Source: Stenotrophomonas maltophilia (GTDB lineage Bacteria; Pseudomonadota; Gammaproteobacteria; Xanthomonadales; Xanthomonadaceae). From it: DNA of 64,000 nucleotides. The notes beneath the pieces are model-generated. The model was not told the DNA's origin. It ran no database searches and worked only from the letters and a program-made list of their open reading frames with translations. Shown piece by piece: positions 4,295-63,476 of this stretch. Numbering within the stretch: position 1 is the stretch's first letter; the number at the start of each line of letters is the position of its first letter. Made by a program: the position numbers and the translations under genes. The stretch lies in assembly GCF_006974125.1 (NCBI RefSeq), contig NZ_CP037858.1, positions 1,736,001-1,800,000 on the forward strand. The letters run 5' to 3'.

Positions 4295-4358
4295 AAAAGG
4301 GGACGGAGGGGATTAAGTCGTTTATGCATAAACGACTTAATCCCCTCCGTCCCCTTTT
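4295..4358. repeat. Perfect 64-bp palindrome (GGGGACGGAGGGGATTAAGTCG family)
   Basis: Bases 4295-4326 are the exact reverse complement of 4327-4358, with no spacer; the centre is TTTATG/CATAAA. The arm begins AAAAGGGGACGGAGGGG. A single arm recurs at 48256-48284, which marks it as a dispersed repeat rather than a simple terminator. It fills nearly all the space between two converging genes and would give a strong hairpin with a terminal U run on either strand, so it may also terminate both transcripts. Confidence 0.85.
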
Positions 4359-48255: not shown

Positions 48256-48284
48256 AAAAGGGGACGGAGGGGATTAAGTCGTTT
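48256..48284 (+). repeat. Single arm of the 64-bp palindrome family
   Basis: AAAAGGGGACGGAGGGGATT then AAGTCGTTT matches one arm of the palindrome at 4295-4358 but without the partner arm, so no hairpin forms. It shows that the arm can occur alone. Confidence 0.8.
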
Positions 48285-48297
48285 GTGGCACTTCGCT

Positions 48298-55657: not shown

Positions 55658-56935
55658 TCAATCCTTGACGATCTGCGGCGAACCCAGGCCAAGACCGGCG
55701 ATGCGACCGACAAGTTCCGCAGCACTGGCATGGTCGCTGGCAGGAACGCGCAGGCGGAACAGGGTACGGCCACCGGCGGCGATGTCACTGATGGTCGCGC
55801 CGACGATGCCGGCGGCACTGAGCTGGCCCATCGCGCGGTTGGCGTTGTCGCGGTTGGAGAAGCTGGCGACCTGCACCATCACCGCGCCCACCACCTGCTG
55901 CGACAGGCTGGGTGCGGCCGGCGTGGTCGATGCGCTGCGCACCGGTGCCGGCGCCACCGCGCGCGGAGTGGTGCTGGCCAAGACAACCGGAGCGGGCACC
56001 GTGCTGCGCGCCGGCGGCGCGCTCGGTGGCAGGCTGCTGACCGCCACGTCCGGCAGCGTGCTGGCCACGCCCTGGGTGGTGGCCGGCTGGCCACGCGCAG
56101 GCATGCTGTCGCCCGGCAGGCGCTTGACCAGGCGATCGATGTCGCTGTCGGCGGTGGCGCGTGCGGCTGGCGTCGGGCGCGCACTGGCCACGGCTGCTGC
56201 GGCTGCTGCTTCGGCGGCACGGCGCTCGCGGCGCGACGGCTTCTGCGCCAGCAGGTTGCCCTCACCCGGCTGCAGCGCGCGTACTTCCACGTTGCCGGTG
56301 CCACGCTGGGTGATGCCCAGGCGCACAGCGGCGGCATAGCTGAGATCGACCACGCGGCCATCATGGAAGGGACCGCGATCGTTGACGCGCACGATCACCG
56401 ACTCGCCGTTGTCGAGGTTGGTCACGCGGGCGAAGCTGGGCAGCGGCAGCGTCTTGTGCGCAGCGGTGAACTGATACATGTCGTAGACCTCGCGGTTGGA
56501 GGTCAGGCGGCCATGGAACTTGGCGCCGTAGTACGACGCGGTGCCGCGCTCGACATAGTTGCGGGTGTCGTCAAGCACTTTGTACGACTTGCCCAGCACC
56601 ACGTACGGCGTCTTGTTGCCGATCGCCGAGCGTTCTTCGGCGGTCACTTCCGGTTCGGGGATGCAGGCCACGTTCGGAATGTAGTCTGGCGTGCTGTCAC
56701 GCACGCCCGGCTTGTACAGGCCACCGGCGGTGTAGTTGCCGCGGGTACTCAGGTCTTCCTTGGCCGCCGCGTAGGGCGAGCCTTCCGGACAGTGTGCCGG
56801 CCGCGAGCCGCGCCCCTGCACCAGGGTGCCGCCCGACTTGCCACCATGGCCGGCCGTGGCCGGCTTCTTCGGCGCGCTGCTGCAGGCAGCCAGCGCGAGG
56901 ACGATCAAGCCTGGGACCAGCCATCTGATGTTCAT
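55658..56935 (-). CDS. rlpA: Septal ring lytic transglycosylase RlpA
   Basis: The 425-residue lipoprotein (ALAACSS lipobox) has a double-psi beta-barrel with ASYYGAKFHGRLTSNREVYD, TLPLPSFARVTNLDNGESV and VNDRGPF, and, after a Pro/Ala-rich linker, a C-terminal SPOR domain (VMVQVASFSNRDNANRA) that binds denuded glycan at division sites. RlpA cleaves naked glycan in Pseudomonas. Its ATG overlaps the mltB stop by four bases; the dacA gene follows. Confidence 0.94.
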   Translation of the reverse strand: MNIRWLVPGLIVLALAACSSAPKKPATAGHGGKSGGTLVQGRGSRPAHCPEGSPYAAAKEDLSTRGNYTAGGLYKPGVRDSTPDYIPNVACIPEPEVTAEERSAIGNKTPYVVLGKSYKVLDDTRNYVERGTASYYGAKFHGRLTSNREVYDMYQFTAAHKTLPLPSFARVTNLDNGESVIVRVNDRGPFHDGRVVDLSYAAAVRLGITQRGTGNVEVRALQPGEGNLLAQKPSRRERRAAEAAAAAAVASARPTPAARATADSDIDRLVKRLPGDSMPARGQPATTQGVASTLPDVAVSSLPPSAPPARSTVPAPVVLASTTPRAVAPAPVRSASTTPAAPSLSQQVVGAVMVQVASFSNRDNANRAMGQLSAAGIVGATISDIAAGGRTLFRLRVPASDHASAAELVGRIAGLGLGSPQIVKD

Positions 56936-58077
56936 GCCGGGGGCAGCTCCTGTCCGGCGATGGCCTGGGACAACTGGAACACGGCCATCGCGTACATCTT
57001 CGAGAGGTTGTAGCGGGTGATCGCGTAGTAGTTCTGGAAGCCCAGCCAGTACTGCTTGCCGGTGCTGCCTTCAAGCGTGATCGGCGTAGCCGTGGCGCCC
57101 GGCTGCACTGCAGCGCTGGGCTGGTAGCCGCGCTGCGCCAGGTCGGCCAGCGACCAGGTCGGCATCCATTCGGTCGGATTGAATTCCTCGCGCCCCGGCG
57201 CCAGCGTGGCCGGCACCGCCACCTGTCCGCCGCGCACCCAGCCGCCCTTCTTCACGAAGTAGTTGGCGATGGACGAGAACACATCGTCGTAGCTGGTGAA
57301 CAGGTCGCGACGGCCATCGCCGTTGCCGTCCACCGCGTAATCAAGATAGCTGGACGGCATGAACTGGCCCATGCCCATCGCACCGGCATAACTGCCCTTG
57401 AGCGTGGTGATGTCCAGGTTTTCTTCGCGGCCCAGCTCGAACAGCTTGGCCAGTTCGTCGCGGAAGAACAGCTCGCGGCGCACTTCGCGTTCCAGCTTGG
57501 CCGGGTCGCCGCTGCGCGGGTAGTAGAACGCCAGCGTGTACAGCGCATCGAGCACGCGATGGCTGCCGGCATTCTTTCCGTAGCTGGTTTCCACGCCAAT
57601 GATCGCCACGATCACTTCGGCCGGCACGCCGGTGCGCTGCTGCACGCGATCCAGTTCGGCGCGATGCTGGGCCAGGAACGCGCGGCCGCCATCGATGCGG
57701 GCCTTGCTGATGAACATCGGCCGGTATTCGTTCCACGGCTTGACCCGTTCGGCCGGGCGCGACATCGCGGCGATGATCGGCTGGCGCACCTGCGCCTGGT
57801 CGAGCACGCTGCTGATCTGCTCCGGCTTCAGGCCATAGCGCTTGGCGGTATCGGCAATGAAGCGGGCCCGCGCGACCTCGAACGGCACCGGTGTGAGATC
57901 GACCGGCGGTGCGGTGGCAGCGGCGGCTTCGGGCGCGGCCTCGGCCGGGCCATGGGCCTTGGCGGCGGGCTGGCGCGGCGTACTGCTGGCCTGGGGCGAA
58001 GACGGTGGGGACTTCGGCTGGGTCGCGCAGGCGACCAGGCCGAGGGTGAGCATGCAGGCCAGAGTGCGTCGAATCAT
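56932..58077 (-). CDS. mltB: Lytic murein transglycosylase B
   Basis: The 381-residue lipoprotein (GLVACATQ) has a catalytic domain with VIVAIIGVETSYGKNAGSHR, where the glutamate is catalytic, and GAMGMGQFMPSSYLDYAVDG, the standard MltB markers. A Pro/Ala/Ser linker of about 40 residues follows the lipid anchor. It cleaves glycan chains at the outer membrane's inner face. It starts the mltB-rlpA-dacA group. A reasonable sigma-70 promoter lies upstream at 58105-58133. Confidence 0.94.
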   Translation of the reverse strand: MIRRTLACMLTLGLVACATQPKSPPSSPQASSTPRQPAAKAHGPAEAAPEAAAATAPPVDLTPVPFEVARARFIADTAKRYGLKPEQISSVLDQAQVRQPIIAAMSRPAERVKPWNEYRPMFISKARIDGGRAFLAQHRAELDRVQQRTGVPAEVIVAIIGVETSYGKNAGSHRVLDALYTLAFYYPRSGDPAKLEREVRRELFFRDELAKLFELGREENLDITTLKGSYAGAMGMGQFMPSSYLDYAVDGNGDGRRDLFTSYDDVFSSIANYFVKKGGWVRGGQVAVPATLAPGREEFNPTEWMPTWSLADLAQRGYQPSAAVQPGATATPITLEGSTGKQYWLGFQNYYAITRYNLSKMYAMAVFQLSQAIAGQELPPA

Positions 58078-58104
58078 CGTCGCAGGTTAGCAGGTCATGG
58101 ATGA

Positions 58105-58133
58105 ATTAAAACCCCTAACACCATGAATCACAA
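58105..58133 (-). promoter_or_regulatory. Sigma-70-like promoter of mltB-rlpA-dacA
   Basis: On the minus strand, TTGTGA (58133-58128) and TTTAAT (58110-58105) are separated by exactly 17 bases. The -10 is 27 bases before the mltB start. Confidence 0.5.
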
Positions 58134-58200
58134 CGATTTGCCCGCGTTCAGCGGGAAATGTGAAGACGTCGTGATCGCACTTCCCCATTCAGATAGAGGT

Positions 58201-58500
58201 TGCCGGTTGCGTCCCCATCCCCGCAGACGCAACCGGCGACCGGATCCGGTCGGTACCCGCGCGGCTGCCGCTCCCCAGTGGCAGTGCTCCGCGCTCCCTG
58301 TACCCGTTGGATCAGTACTGCTTCCCGCCCGACGCCCCCTCGCGCTGCAACGATTGACGGCGCGCCGTGCCGAACGGGCCGCCATTGTGCAGGCCGATTA
58401 CGACAAGTCCATTGATCAGGATCAACGCAGCGTAAAAGTGTGAACCGGATTACATTTTTTATGGACTTCGGTCAGTGGCAATGCAACTGCGGGCTGCTGT
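58201..58500. other. Non-coding stretch ahead of the inverted-repeat element
   Basis: No gene is visible here. GCCGGTTGCGTC and GACGCAACCGGC form a 12-bp stem around a 12-base loop at about 58203-58238. The sequence from about 58390 to 58500 is AT-richer (GTAAAAGTGTGAACCGGATT) and may hold another promoter or part of an untranslated RNA. Confidence 0.35.
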
Positions 58501-58540
58501 GAGAACGCTTTCACAAGGGACGTTGCGCAGAGTCAGGATA

Positions 58541-59067
58541 TTTCCAGCCAACGGCGCAGCCCCTCGTGGGTGGGGTCGGTCGCTGAAAGCAAAAGCTGCG
58601 AGTGGGTCGGTCGGGTCGGGTACGCGGGGGACGCCGTGAATCCGTCCCTGGAGGCTTGGCAGCCGCATCCATGCGGCCGACACCCCCGCGTACCCAACCC
58701 GACCGCCCTCTGACAGATTTCGGTGGCCTGCCACCCACGGAGAAGAAAAGAAGATCAAAAGCGGGTCGCGCGCTGCGCTTGCTCGTGAGCAGAGCACGGC
58801 TTGGCTCTACACAAGGCAATGAAGCGATCCGCCAGGCCGCTTTTGCTTTTGATCTTCTTTTTTCTTTTTCGTGGGTGGACGAACACGGAATCTGTCAGCG
58901 GCCGGGTGGGTGGGCAGTGCGGGGTGTCCGCCGCATGGATGCGGCGGCCAAGCCCCCATGGATGGGTTCACGGCGTCCCCGCACTGCCCACCCACCCGGC
59001 CAGCCCCCAGCAATCCGGCTTTCAGCGACCGACCCCACCCACGAGGGGCTGCGCCGTTGGCTGGAAA
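58541..59067. repeat. 527-bp nested inverted-repeat element
   Basis: The ends, 58541-58590 and 59018-59067, are perfect 50-bp inverted copies, with a 427-base centre. Inside lie two homologous hairpins in opposite orientation: 58609-58704 (22-bp stem, one mismatch) and 58900-59001 (25-bp perfect stem), each closing a smaller GCCGCAT-nn-ATGCGGC stem (58662-58677; 58930-58945). Between them GAAGATCAAAAGC and its inverse face each other. The right end stops one base from the rodA-like stop codon. Frames across it give low-complexity peptides, so it is most likely non-coding. Confidence 0.85.
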
Positions 59068-59068
59068 C

Positions 59069-60148
59069 CTATCCCCCGTGCACGGGCCGGTGCCCTCGTA
59101 CCGCCATCACCAGTCCGATGCCGGCCAACAGCGAGACCGCCGAGGTCCCGCCATAACTGATCAAGGGCATCGGAATGCCCACCACCGGCAGCAGGCCGGA
59201 AATCATTCCGCCATTGACCAGCACGTAGACGCAGAACGCCAACCCCAGACTGCCGGCCAGCAACCGCGCGTGCGTGTCCCGCGCATGCACCGCGATCCAC
59301 AGGCAGCGCCCGACCACGAACAGGTACAGCGCGAACACGCTGGCCACGCCGATCCAGCCGAACTCCTCAGCCAGCACTGAAAACGCGAAGTCCGTGGTGT
59401 ACTCGGGCAGGAAATCCAGCGTGGCCTGCGTCCCCTGCCCCCAGCCACGCCCGTCCCAGCCACCGGAGCCGATCGCGATGCGCGACTGCAGGATGTTCCA
59501 ACCGGTGCCGAGCGGATCCGCCGCCGGGTCGAGGAAGGTCAGCACGCGATCCTTCTGGTACTGCCGCAACAGGCCGAGCCAGGCCAGCGGCGCGGCCACT
59601 GCCAGGCCCGTCGCGCCGGTCGCCACCCAGCCCCAGTGCAGCCCGGCCAACAGCAGCGCGAACACGCCGCTGGCGGTGACCAGCGTGGCGGTACCGAGGT
59701 TGGGCTGCATCAGGATCAGCACCGCCGGTACGCCGATCAGCACGGCGGCGGTCAGTACGGTGCGCGGCGACGGTGGCAGCGGTTGCCGATGCAGGTACCA
59801 GGCCATCATCAGCGGCAGGCTGAGCTTGAGCAGCTCGGACGGCTGCAGGTAGAACACGCCGAGATTGAGCCAGCGCTGCCCGTACTTGCCGGTGCCGATC
59901 ACGTACACCGCCATCAGCGGCAGCATCGACAGCGCGTAGATCGCAGGGGTCCACGCGCGCAGTCGCAGCAGCGAAACGCGCGACAGCAGCCACATCGCCA
60001 CCAGGCCACAGGCAAAACGCGCCGCCTGCCCGGCCACCGGGCCGGACACGCTGTGCAGCACCGCCAGGCCCGCGCCCATCAGGATCAACAACGCGACGAG
60101 CAACGGCAGGTCGATCGTGCGCACCGCCTCACGGCAGCGGCCAAGCAT
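59069..60148 (-). CDS. RodA-like SEDS glycosyltransferase, second copy
   Basis: The 359-residue product has about ten membrane helices and keeps the SEDS markers PxYTTDFAFSVLAEEFG (with the catalytic Asp loop), GTGWNILQSRIAIGSGG and MPLISYGGTSAVSLLAGIGL. It is clearly homologous to the next gene upstream on the same strand, from which it is separated by 137 bases holding an inverted repeat. The start is uncertain: ATG 60148 has GGAAA ahead; GTG 60163 would add VEWKR. Whether both paralogues polymerise glycan strands cannot be told. Confidence 0.85.
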   Translation of the reverse strand: MLGRCREAVRTIDLPLLVALLILMGAGLAVLHSVSGPVAGQAARFACGLVAMWLLSRVSLLRLRAWTPAIYALSMLPLMAVYVIGTGKYGQRWLNLGVFYLQPSELLKLSLPLMMAWYLHRQPLPPSPRTVLTAAVLIGVPAVLILMQPNLGTATLVTASGVFALLLAGLHWGWVATGATGLAVAAPLAWLGLLRQYQKDRVLTFLDPAADPLGTGWNILQSRIAIGSGGWDGRGWGQGTQATLDFLPEYTTDFAFSVLAEEFGWIGVASVFALYLFVVGRCLWIAVHARDTHARLLAGSLGLAFCVYVLVNGGMISGLLPVVGIPMPLISYGGTSAVSLLAGIGLVMAVRGHRPVHGG

Positions 60149-60229
60149 TCGTTTCCATTCCACGCGCGCCACGGTAGCAACGGGCGCTTGCGTGAAGCTG
60201 TCAGGGTGCTTCTGCTCTCCGTAGCCGAG

Positions 60230-60279
60230 CTGTGGGGTCAGATCCTTTTTCCTGTGGGAAAAGGGATCTGACCCCACAG
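60230..60279. repeat. 50-bp inverted repeat (GGGGTCAGATCC family)
   Basis: CTGTGGGGTCAGATCC (60230-60245) and GGATCTGACCCCACAG (60264-60279) are perfect arms. The inner TTTTT and AAAA also pair imperfectly. It separates the two rodA genes and resembles the 64-bp palindrome at 4295 in layout (A/T-rich centre, GGGG ends). Confidence 0.8.
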
Positions 60280-60285
60280 CCGGAC

Positions 60286-61398
60286 TCACCCGTAGCCGCC
60301 GTGCACCGGGTTGTGACTGCGCACCGCCATCACCAGGCCGAAGCCGGCCAGCAGCGATACGGCCGAAGTGCCGCCGTAGCTGATCAGCGGCATGGGCACG
60401 CCCACCACCGGCAGCAGGCCGGAAATCATCCCGCCGTTCACCAGCACGTAGACGAAGAACGCCAGGCCGGTGGCGCCGGCCAGCAGGCGCGAGTACGAAT
60501 CACGCGACTGGCTGGCGATCCACAGGCAACGCCCGATCACCACCAGGTACAGCGCCAGCACGGTGGCCACGCCGATCCAGCCGAATTCCTCGCTCAGCAC
60601 CGAGAACGCGAAGTCGGTGGTCTGCTCGGGAATGAAGTTCAGGTGGGACTGCGAGCCCTCGCCCCAGCCCTTGCCATCGAAGCCGCCGGAACCGATCGCG
60701 ATCTTCGACTGGATGATGTTCCAGCCGGCCCCCAGCGCATCCATCTCCGGGTCCAGGAACATCATGATGCGGTCCTTCTGGTACGGCCGCAGCAGCCAGA
60801 ACCAGGCCACCGGCGCAACCGCGGCCACGCCGCCCACGCCCAGGCCGACCCACCACCACGGCAGGCCCGCCAGCAGCAGCACGAACACGCCGCTGGCGGC
60901 GATCAGCACGCCGGTACCGAAGTCCGGCTGCAGCATCACCAGGCCGGTCGGCACGCCGATGATGATCAAGGCCACCAGCACGGTGTTGAAGCGCGGCGGC
61001 AGCGGCATCTTGTGCAGGTACCAGGCCACCATCATCGGCAGGCTGACCTTCAACAACTCGGCCGGCTGCAGGTAGAAGAACTTCAGGTCCAGCCACTGCC
61101 GGCCATACTTGCCGGTGCCGAGCACGAACACCGCCAGCAGCGGGATCATCGAGATCGCATAGATCATCGGCGTGGCCGAGCGGATGCGCAGGATGGGCAC
61201 GCGCGAGATGCCCCACAGTGCGGCCATGCCCACCGCGAAACGCGCGCCCTGGGCCATCACCAGGCCATCGCCACCGGCACTCTTCAAGGTGGCCAGGCCA
61301 ATCACCATCAACGCGCCCAAAGCCAGGCACAACACCCAGTCCAGCGTGCTGAAGAAGCGGCGCAGCATGTCGCCGGCCCAACGCAGGAACACTCTCAT
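60286..61398 (-). CDS. mrdB: Rod-shape SEDS glycosyltransferase RodA
   Basis: The 370-residue product has ten predicted membrane helices and the SEDS motifs PEQTTDFAFSVLSEEFGW, GAGWNIIQSKIAIGSGG and ISYGGTSAVSLLAGFGL. RodA polymerises lipid II in side-wall synthesis with PBP2. Its ATG overlaps the mrdA stop by four bases, so it is the canonical partner of PBP2, in contrast to the second copy downstream. Confidence 0.94.
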   Translation of the reverse strand: MRVFLRWAGDMLRRFFSTLDWVLCLALGALMVIGLATLKSAGGDGLVMAQGARFAVGMAALWGISRVPILRIRSATPMIYAISMIPLLAVFVLGTGKYGRQWLDLKFFYLQPAELLKVSLPMMVAWYLHKMPLPPRFNTVLVALIIIGVPTGLVMLQPDFGTGVLIAASGVFVLLLAGLPWWWVGLGVGGVAAVAPVAWFWLLRPYQKDRIMMFLDPEMDALGAGWNIIQSKIAIGSGGFDGKGWGEGSQSHLNFIPEQTTDFAFSVLSEEFGWIGVATVLALYLVVIGRCLWIASQSRDSYSRLLAGATGLAFFVYVLVNGGMISGLLPVVGVPMPLISYGGTSAVSLLAGFGLVMAVRSHNPVHGGYG

Positions 61399-63476
61399 CG
61401 TGCGGGCTCCGCGGTGGTCGGACGCGGCATGGCCGGCAACGCGGCCGCAGCCGGCGTCCCCGGCTGTGGTGCGGGTGCAGGTGCCGGTTCCGGTGCGGGC
61501 ACGCCGACCAGCACCGGGTGTTCGCCCAACTGTGCCGCAGCAAGATCACCGGCCTGGCGTGCGCCCACATCTTCATTGTCGAATGCGGTCGCACCGATCG
61601 CGGTGGTACCGCGCTCGCTGTCCAGCGGCTGCATGCCTTCAGGCATCTTGCCCAGCAGATAGGCGTCGAACACCTTGCGTGCGATCGGCGCGGCCGCCGC
61701 ACCGCCGTAGCCGCCGCCCTCCACCGCGATCGCCAGCGCGATCACCGGCTGGTCGACCGGCGCGAAACCGACGAACAGCGCGCGGTGGCGCAGGTGCATC
61801 GGCAGGCTCTTCGGATTCACCGCAGCGGTGCCCTTGCGGCTGATGACCTGCGCGGTACCGGTCTTGCCGGCCATCGTGTACGGCGCGCCGGCCGCCATGC
61901 GTGCCGCACTGCCGCCAGGCAACATGGTGGCCATCATGCCTTCGCGCACCGCCTGCAGGTTGTTCGGGTTCGGACTGACCGGTTTGCTCTCACCCGGGTC
62001 GGTCGCCATCCAGTCATGGTCGAACCCCGCGCGCTGCTGGATCACCAGATGGGGCGTGCGCAGCTGCCCGTTGGCCAGCCCACTGACACCCCGTGCCAGC
62101 TGCAGCGGGGTGACCTTCCAGTCACCCTGGCCGATGCTGATGTTGACCGTATCGCCCGGGTACCAGGCTTCCTTGCGGCTCTTCCGCTTGTACGCCGGCG
62201 ACGGCAGGATGCCGCCGATCTCGCCGGTCAGGTCGATACCGGTCGGCTGACCAAAGCCGTAGTACTCCATGTAGTGGTCGAAGCGCTCGATGCCCAGGTC
62301 CAGCGCCAGCTTGTAGTAGTAGGTGTTGACCGACTGCGCGATGGATTTGCGCAGGTCGGTCCAGCCATGGCCGCCGCGGTGCGAGTCACCCCACCCACGC
62401 GAGGTGCCGGGCAGGTAGAACATGCCGGTGGACAACACCTTGTCTTCCGGGCGGCGCACGCCGGAATCCAGGCCGGCCAGGCCGATCAGCGGCTTCAACG
62501 TGGAACCGGGCGCGACGCCACCGAGTACCAGGCGGTTGAACTGCGGCCGCGACGGGTTCTCGTTCAGCGCCTTGAAGTCGGCATGGGAAATGCCGTTGAC
62601 GAACAGGTTGGGGTCGTAGGACGGCAGGCTGACCATCGCCAGCACTTCGCCAGTGCGCGGGTCCATCGCCACCGCCGAGCCTTCCTGGTCACCGAAGGCT
62701 GCCACCATGGCGCGCTGCAGGTCGGCGTCGATCGACAGCCGCAGGTCGGCACCGGACTGCGCGGCGACGCGGCCGATGGTGCGGATCGCACGGCCCTGCA
62801 CGTTGGTCTCGACCTGTTCGTAGCCGACCTTGCCGCGCAGCTGTTGCTCGTAATAGCGCTCCAGGCCGGACTTGCCGATGTGGGTCAGCGCGGCATTGCC
62901 CTCGCCCAGGATTTCCAGATCCTTGTCATCGACGCGGCCGACATAGCCGATGATGTGCGCGAACAGGTCGCCGTACGGATAACGCCGGGTCAGGTAAGGC
63001 TCCAGCTCGACGCCGGGGAAGCGCCAACGGTCGACGGCGAAGCGCGCCATCTCCTCGTCGCTCATGCGCAGCTTCAGCGTGACCGGCAGGAACTTGCGGC
63101 GCGCCTTGCGCGACTTGTTGAACGCTTCCAGCTCTTCCGGGCTGATGCTGATGATCTTCGCCAGCCCTTCCAGGGTGGCGTCCATGTCCTTGACCTTGTC
63201 CGGGGTCACATCCAGGCGGAAGGCTGGCACGTTCTCGGCCAGCAGGCGACCGTTGCGGTCGTAGATCATGCCGCGCCCGGGCACCACCGGCCGCGGCTTG
63301 ATACGGTTGGCTTCCGAACGCGTGGCGTAGACGTCGTGGTCCAGCACCTGCAGCTTGAAGTACCAGCCGCCCAGGCCCAGCAGGCAGACCAGCACGCCCA
63401 GGAAACCCAGCGCCGCACGGCGGCGGAACTGTTCGGCTTCGGCGTGCGGATTCTTGACCTGGCGGCGCGGGATCAT
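61395..63476 (-). CDS. mrdA: Penicillin-binding protein 2
   Basis: The 693-residue protein has one N-terminal membrane helix (about 22-40), a dimerisation domain and the transpeptidase domain with S325-x-x-K328 in GVAPGSTLKPL, SVN 382-384 and KTG 537-539. A Pro/Ala-rich tail after about 660 is not in E. coli PBP2. It cross-links side-wall peptidoglycan with RodA. The mreD stop is three bases before its start; the gene overlaps rodA by four bases. Confidence 0.96.
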   Translation of the reverse strand: MIPRRQVKNPHAEAEQFRRRAALGFLGVLVCLLGLGGWYFKLQVLDHDVYATRSEANRIKPRPVVPGRGMIYDRNGRLLAENVPAFRLDVTPDKVKDMDATLEGLAKIISISPEELEAFNKSRKARRKFLPVTLKLRMSDEEMARFAVDRWRFPGVELEPYLTRRYPYGDLFAHIIGYVGRVDDKDLEILGEGNAALTHIGKSGLERYYEQQLRGKVGYEQVETNVQGRAIRTIGRVAAQSGADLRLSIDADLQRAMVAAFGDQEGSAVAMDPRTGEVLAMVSLPSYDPNLFVNGISHADFKALNENPSRPQFNRLVLGGVAPGSTLKPLIGLAGLDSGVRRPEDKVLSTGMFYLPGTSRGWGDSHRGGHGWTDLRKSIAQSVNTYYYKLALDLGIERFDHYMEYYGFGQPTGIDLTGEIGGILPSPAYKRKSRKEAWYPGDTVNISIGQGDWKVTPLQLARGVSGLANGQLRTPHLVIQQRAGFDHDWMATDPGESKPVSPNPNNLQAVREGMMATMLPGGSAARMAAGAPYTMAGKTGTAQVISRKGTAAVNPKSLPMHLRHRALFVGFAPVDQPVIALAIAVEGGGYGGAAAAPIARKVFDAYLLGKMPEGMQPLDSERGTTAIGATAFDNEDVGARQAGDLAAAQLGEHPVLVGVPAPEPAPAPAPQPGTPAAAALPAMPRPTTAEPAR

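Follow-up and report, generated by a model that had tools for sequence, protein, structure and literature searches.

The 527-bp inverted-repeat element at 58541-59067 of the window (the whole stretch of 64,000 nucleotides of Stenotrophomonas maltophilia DNA that was analysed) is, on a reading to which we give even chances, a (+,-) composite from a dispersed repeat family that undergoes turnover, and its transcript would present two putative sites for CsrA. The family has a defined structure, a covarying stem, a wide spread, a presence that differs between species and two CANGGANG loops on one strand. The two-hairpin core, the spread over the class and the match of one strand to the CsrA/RsmE consensus had been missed in an earlier note on this DNA.

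Architecture of the element

The element, whose position is as first described, has the following features and neighbours:

56935-58077, - strand: left neighbour, SLT_2 transglycosylase gene, MltB-like
58541..58590, no strand: left outer arm, perfect inverted copy of 59018-59067
58604..58709, + strand: left hairpin unit, 26-bp stem and 54-nt core, GACGCCG... on the + strand
58620-58693: covariance-model match in the left unit, 97.2 bits
58643..58650, - strand: loop octamer CAGGGACG (CANGGANG) of hairpin A, left unit, from sequence and column counts
58666..58673, - strand: loop octamer CATGGATG (CANGGANG) of hairpin B, left unit, from sequence and column counts
58746..58861, no strand: spacer, with a 17-bp perfect inverted repeat AAAAGAAGATCAAAAGC at its bounds
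58898..59003, - strand: right hairpin unit, inverted relative to the left unit
58914-58987: covariance-model match in the right unit, 96.7 bits
58934..58941, + strand: loop octamer CATGGATG (CANGGANG) of hairpin B, right unit, from sequence
58957..58964, + strand: loop octamer CATGGATG (CANGGANG) of hairpin A, right unit, from sequence
59018..59067, no strand: right outer arm, inverted copy of the left arm
59072-60289, - strand: right neighbour, FtsW/RodA-family gene

The outer 50 bp had been described as perfect inverted copies, and the arms 58541-58590 and 59018-59067 are complementary at 50/50 positions. Two homologous long-stem hairpins were also said to lie inside in opposite orientation; we found their arms to be 92% complementary in the left unit (58605-58630/58683-58708) and 100% in the right unit (58900-58924/58977-59001), and the claimed common order of sub-motifs, GACGCCGTGAA ... 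GCCGCATCCATGCGGC, is indeed read on opposite strands in the two units. In the right unit 20 nt separate the two GGAs. The predicted fold of the 527 nt has an energy of -409.5 kcal/mol; 100 dinucleotide shuffles average -233.8 (sd 6.9; z -25.5), and none of them was equally low. The proposal of a ~260-bp unit and its inverted copy keeps its inverted pairing and loses its repeat size: outer arm and spacer differ from copy to copy, and the most widely repeated part is the hairpin of ~106 bp. A comparison of 57500-60000 with Rfam gave six sub-threshold matches, none at gathering score. As both neighbouring genes run leftward, the site is tandem.

Other repeats were observed in the window. The FtsW/RodA-family genes 59072-60289 and 60293-61500 (- strand) adjoin and share 81% identity over 300 bases. 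A perfect 32-bp inverted repeat without gap lies at 4295-4358, and a third copy (97%) of one of its arms is found 44 kb off, at 48256-48287.

Copy number and spread of the family

BLAST with the 527 bp gave at least 110 matches at about 40 places in the 4.55-Mb source genome (40 of 140 candidates scored), and a search of relatives found matches in 21 of 41 genomes, the source genome counted. From 21 units we derived a covariance model covering 74 positions, namely the core and 11 stem pairs. It identified at least 150 matches at E<=0.01 in the source genome (150 of 150 scored candidates), 138 of them at E<=1.1e-11; because 4700 candidates were seen and 150 scored, this number may be a lower bound. 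With these matches, and with stem changes that are mostly paired, the expectation of many copies with covarying stems is borne out.

The model matched 48 of the 276 genomes in a gammaproteobacterial sample, representing 43 of 215 genera, and 12 of the 48 have at least 17 scored matches each. A phylum-level sample gave matches in 35 of 348 genomes, all labelled as the same class or nearer, the number of genomes outside the class in this sample not being given. An exact-pattern scan of named genomes yielded at least 117 stretches; the 80 that were analysed (L213-L292) include, by their titles, Ectothiorhodospira, Thioalkalivibrio, Marinobacter, Halomonas, Haliea, Methylocucumis, Alteromonas, Saccharospirillum, Lysobacter and Stenotrophomonas. 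Three metagenome-assembled contigs titled Klebsiella pneumoniae (L258, L271, L282) also bear the core, and the title may be a misassignment. The 54-nt core had no match at E 0.1 in plasmid, phage and E. coli collections, from which near relatives of the window were possibly omitted. No description of these repeats was found in searches of the open-licence PMC literature.

Free stem sequence and conserved pairing

Stem sequences are variants of a few sequences in the source genus, are unrelated between copies of one genome in some other genomes, such as G260, G320 and Thioalkalivibrio, and are alike within the genome in others, such as G122, G250 and Methylocucumis. Stem length is 20-33 bp in 74 and 12-19 bp in 12 of the 86 units in named contigs, and at least 20 bp in 52/65 units from the class search. 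Among 21 diverse units, pair changes were two-sided in 105 cells and one-sided in 0. The 68 class-wide matches (64 distinct) have 466 two-sided against 10 one-sided changes, with 72/1600 cells unpaired and a covariation score reached by 0/500 shuffles; the model with which these rows were found rewards pairing at the first 11 pairs and does not extend to the outer stem. At one Thioalkalivibrio site, identified by the same gene, five assemblies carry a unit whose arms have changed and still match, and the core is flipped in one of the five; G327 has no unit there, and the contig of G324 ends before the right flank. At locus 2, the arms round the core differ between the source genome (G000) and G017 and are still paired by eye.

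These substitutions bear on coding. Peptides predicted over the element had been taken for artefacts, a judgement that we share: the element is not coding, and its stems change by paired substitutions. That the region codes for small peptides is scarcely credible to us. One unit is read in frame, in a polymerase gene of G040 (below), but substitutions are paired across the stem, most units are intergenic and both orientations are present, and coding was rejected because of the paired substitutions and the mostly intergenic units.

In one further stretch, L333 (G326:C74), the inverted repetition of a unit's arms extends, at a contig end, over 100 bp further into the adjacent gene. That the arms are inverted copies of the target was considered from this stretch and not retained: at a contig end the pattern could be an assembler fold-back, and the polymerase-gene site is undecisive, as it falls in a variable linker.

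The core and the CsrA/RsmA consensus

The 54-nt core is predicted to fold as a three-way junction with two hairpins, A and B. Hairpin A in the source genus reads GCC-GTRAA-NNC-RTCCNT-GNN-GGC; the stem of hairpin B measures at most 8 bp and carries the cap CATCCNTG. On the reverse strand both core loops read C-A-N-G-G-A-N-G. Both CANGGANG sites are found on the reverse strand in 48 of 49 source-genome units; these units were found via a motif upstream of the loops, which makes this count cleaner than that of the wider set. The latter comprises 188 distinct cores no shorter than 50 nt (a single shorter core was dropped, and part of the set comes from a pattern that already requires most of the motif); of these, 186 fit at hairpin A, 179 at hairpin B and 177 at both, and the opposite strand has one site in 8/188. 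Of the 64 distinct class-wide rows, 63 or 64 share the same base at each of the six consensus columns of either loop, and the four N columns each take all four bases. The GGA-GGA spacing is 20 nt in all 64 of the 68 class-wide rows that have two sites; the other 4 rows have one.

SELEX gave the consensus RUACARGGAUGU for CsrA, in which GGA lies in a hairpin loop that usually has six nt and an AC/GU closure; a single CsrA dimer bridges two sites at separations of 10-63 nt, with an optimum above 18 (PMC7652899). For RsmE the consensus reads A/U-CANGGANG-U/A (PMC6849547). When these properties were compared with the sequence, the GGA loop fitted CANGGANG and RUACARGGAUGU, and the two-site spacing of 20 lay within the 10-63 nt range. 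Hairpin A takes the form UAC-six-nt loop-GUA, close to the SELEX ligand, in 38 of the 64 class-wide rows. A diverged version of the repeat was found in six genomes of the f154 family (~6 Mb), with 49 matches at E<=1e-3; both CANGGANG loops are present in all 12 that were read of these 49, and the stem and hairpin A are unlike the model. Two other genera keep both loops in 3/3 matches. As the class-wide and f154 matches were picked by a model that scores the loops, their retention is support and not proof. CsrA was found in 47 of 48 element-bearing genomes and 195 of 228 others (Fisher p 0.015).

Part of this evidence counts against the CsrA reading. The core is conserved beyond CsrA's needs, in a UUCAC bulge and a GCUCG linker. 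Hairpin B reaches the 8 bp given above, and very stable hairpins may be unfavourable for CsrA sites, according to a review (PMC7652899). In G224, which has nine model matches, CsrA was not found.

Other small palindromes were observed inside the loops of hairpins A or B of some units (L067 1741-2000, L075 1937-2180, L054 1561-1720; also L073, L079 with units near 2273 and 2416 on the - strand, L411 at G005 locus 16 and L485 at G022 locus 2), as if a second repeat family targeted the loops, for which the DNA would need to be extruded or single-stranded.

Placement, pairing and turnover

By a simple home-made gene finder, 40 source-genome sites comprise 20 convergent, 20 tandem and 0 divergent. 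This distribution would suit a DNA cruciform or RNA stem that serves as a bidirectional terminator, 3'-end stabiliser or insulator independently of CsrA, as would the high fold stability of single units (z -6.8 to -9.7) and the pairing that is kept while the stem sequence drifts. We nevertheless consider such a function improbable: no terminator-like site with a T run was found in 58080-59200, a stabiliser would need no two-hairpin core conserved class-wide, and one unit lies inside a coding gene. Moreover, the 86 units in named contigs divide into 30 tandem, 22 convergent, 7 within a predicted frame, 19 near a contig end and 8 that are near or between divergent genes.

Neighbouring matches no more than 600 bp apart in the source genome were all (+,-) (49/49), with a spacing of 214-389 bp (median 265), and 52 of the 150 matches are solitary. 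An exception to the (+,-) pairs was observed in L374 (G485:C1), an array of six same-strand units ~227 bp apart (model matches at 1434, 1661, 1890, 2117, 2344 and 2570).

Twenty sites occupied in the source genome were looked up in seven congeners, and regions were obtained from six (all but G001). Units were detected at 15/20 of these sites in G005, 12/19 in G010, 12/20 in G008, 14/19 in G017, 8/10 in G022 and 0/10 in G004. Alignments at loci 7, 9 and 12 show the site empty in some congeners; some absences may be decayed units, for example at locus 16 of G005, where the core is interrupted. G040, a genome from a different family, has an in-frame unit in a gene for a 990-aa DNA polymerase III alpha-family protein, read as DnaE2-like, between the polymerase and finger domains. 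This unit is absent in the congeners G030, G043 and G044; G042 has an N-run there and G041 gave no match. Its outer stem has no match elsewhere in the genome at the sensitivity of BLAST, so a new copy need not carry the stem of its donor. Occupied and empty orthologous sites are thus both present, with the direction of gain or loss polarised for the in-frame copy alone, and from these sites and the in-frame copy it follows that the family moves or is copied. The earlier proposal of a mobile element agrees with the differences in presence between close species; a target-site duplication was not seen at locus 12, the only site read base by base.

The main rival of the CsrA reading is that the family is purely a mobile non-autonomous DNA repeat. 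On this view the twin hairpins of single-stranded DNA are read by a dimeric enzyme whose gene lies elsewhere, for instance an HUH/Y1 transposase, and the resemblance to CsrA sites is a coincidence. We regard this as unlikely, at odds well above those of a terminator or insulator. It is consistent with the presence differences among congeners and the polymerase unit absent in three of them, with inverted pairs and intergenic placement, and with the strand asymmetry described below, which fits single-stranded DNA too. The source genome has three Y1_Tnp domain matches, and 41 of 48 element-bearing genomes have a Y1 transposase domain against 149 of 228 others (hand count), so a mobile repeat with an unknown enzyme stays the main rival. 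However, no Y1 domain was found in seven element-bearing genomes (G113 and G260 each with 16/17 scored matches), and a Y1 transposase is not supported as obligate partner. GTAG occurs in 7/49 source cores, and CGTC in 38/49 yet in 19/68 class-wide rows. The single site read for a target-site duplication and the unmatched outer stem of the in-frame copy also argue against a purely mobile repeat, which leaves unexplained the restriction of constant bases to C, A, GGA and G in both loops. The CsrA reading and the mobile-DNA reading can both be true at once.

Which strand folds

Stem mismatches are asymmetric. Read on the core strand in 212 unit rows, they comprise 161 A.C against 37 G.T, 65 C.T against 12 A.G and 35 C.C against 5 G.G. 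The rows are three sets, with stems of at least 15 bp in two and three arms shared between sets; since rows are related by descent, p values, including the binomial 1e-19 for mismatches, are nominal. On the reverse (GGA) strand these mismatches become the more stable G.U, G.A and G.G, which suggests that folding takes place on the GGA strand, as RNA or single-stranded DNA. The asymmetry could instead be strand-biased mutation.

The orientation of the units relative to genes is also among the evidence counted against the CsrA reading. Beside tandem genes of the named contigs no strand is preferred: the GGA strand is sense in 14 cases and not in 14 (hand count of 28/30 rows, the L222 pair excluded), and between convergent genes of the source genome the non-GGA strand faces the nearer gene in 12/12 (+,-) pairs and 7/8 solitary sites. 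Solitary tandem units of the source genome are GGA-sense in 4/5. Solitary units there were also seen to favour + below 2.4 Mb (15:6) and - above it (12:19; Fisher p 0.026).

Comparison with known repeats and RNAs

Short dispersed palindromes include NEMIS/Correia, ERIC and the Rickettsia palindromic elements, the last of which lie in frame in genes. REP/REPIN sequences are high-copy intergenic palindromes with inverted doublets and occasional insertion in genes (PMC3733652, PMC3116915). The present family resembles them (GTAG- and CGTC-tagged; SMAG in S. maltophilia) in copy number, intergenic palindromes, inverted doublets and mobility. It differs in its unit of ~106 bp against 20-40 bp, in a stem that varies round a constant loop, in the absence of a constant GTAG/CGTC tag (GTAG in 21/68 and CGTC in 19/68 class-wide rows) and, as REP/REPIN are RAYT-borne, in the 7/48 element-bearing genomes in which no Y1 domain was found.

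With CsrB/CsrC, RsmX/Y/Z, Aln1a-c and CsrR1/2 the unit shares GGA in hairpin loops, several sites per RNA and one-dimer spacing. Those CsrA-sequestering sRNAs are single loci, Aln1a-c lying within one 404-nt region (PMC5864184) and CsrR1/2 being likewise single-locus (PMC9788540), whereas here two putative sites per unit recur in ~150 matches chromosome-wide, have no Rfam match at gathering score and are known as DNA sequence.

The Coxiella elements QMITE1 and QMITE2 are MITE families of 50-80 copies, QMITE2 mainly in 3' UTRs and intergenic regions; some copies give sRNAs, and the elements host nested insertions (PMC5896051). By description they are alike in being multi-copy and intergenic with nested insertions, and unlike in their direct repeats at the ends and the GTAG REP in QMITE2; CsrA has 0 occurrences in that text (PMC5896051).

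Proposed role and significance

If the GGA strand is transcribed, the RNA would offer two high-affinity sites to one CsrA/RsmA dimer. Copies, mostly beside gene ends, would then provide 3'-end landing sites for CsrA, decorating 3' regions or read-through and antisense transcripts, and the dispersed copies together could act as a CsrA decoy pool. Stem pairing may be kept because the folded strand is the form in use, perhaps with help from template-switch correction between the arms. Judged from sequence, a doubled CsrA consensus that stays constant while its stem varies freely would be explained most simply by an RNA that holds one CsrA dimer. More tentatively, and at somewhat worse than even chances, class-wide mobile RNA modules may have seeded gammaproteobacterial genomes with up to >100 two-site CsrA/RsmA decoys at gene ends, chromosome-wide transcription and read-through setting free CsrA.

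The usual view of dispersed palindromic repeats is that they are selfish DNA or terminators. In this family, what stays constant class-wide is the RNA-site consensus of a global regulator, present twice at one-dimer spacing. Should the ligand be something other than CsrA, stems rewritten in concert around a constant loop are still an unusual form of repeat evolution, and the concerted change of the arms makes template-switch correction of palindromes measurable. If RNA is made, the repeat load would be tied to CsrA activity. The decoy pool, if real, would be a distributed counterpart of CsrB/RsmZ, notable for the Xanthomonadaceae in that Xanthomonas genomes are said to code no CsrB/CsrC homologs (PMC7286519); if RNA is made, it would also give a testable answer to what counteracts CsrA in this family.
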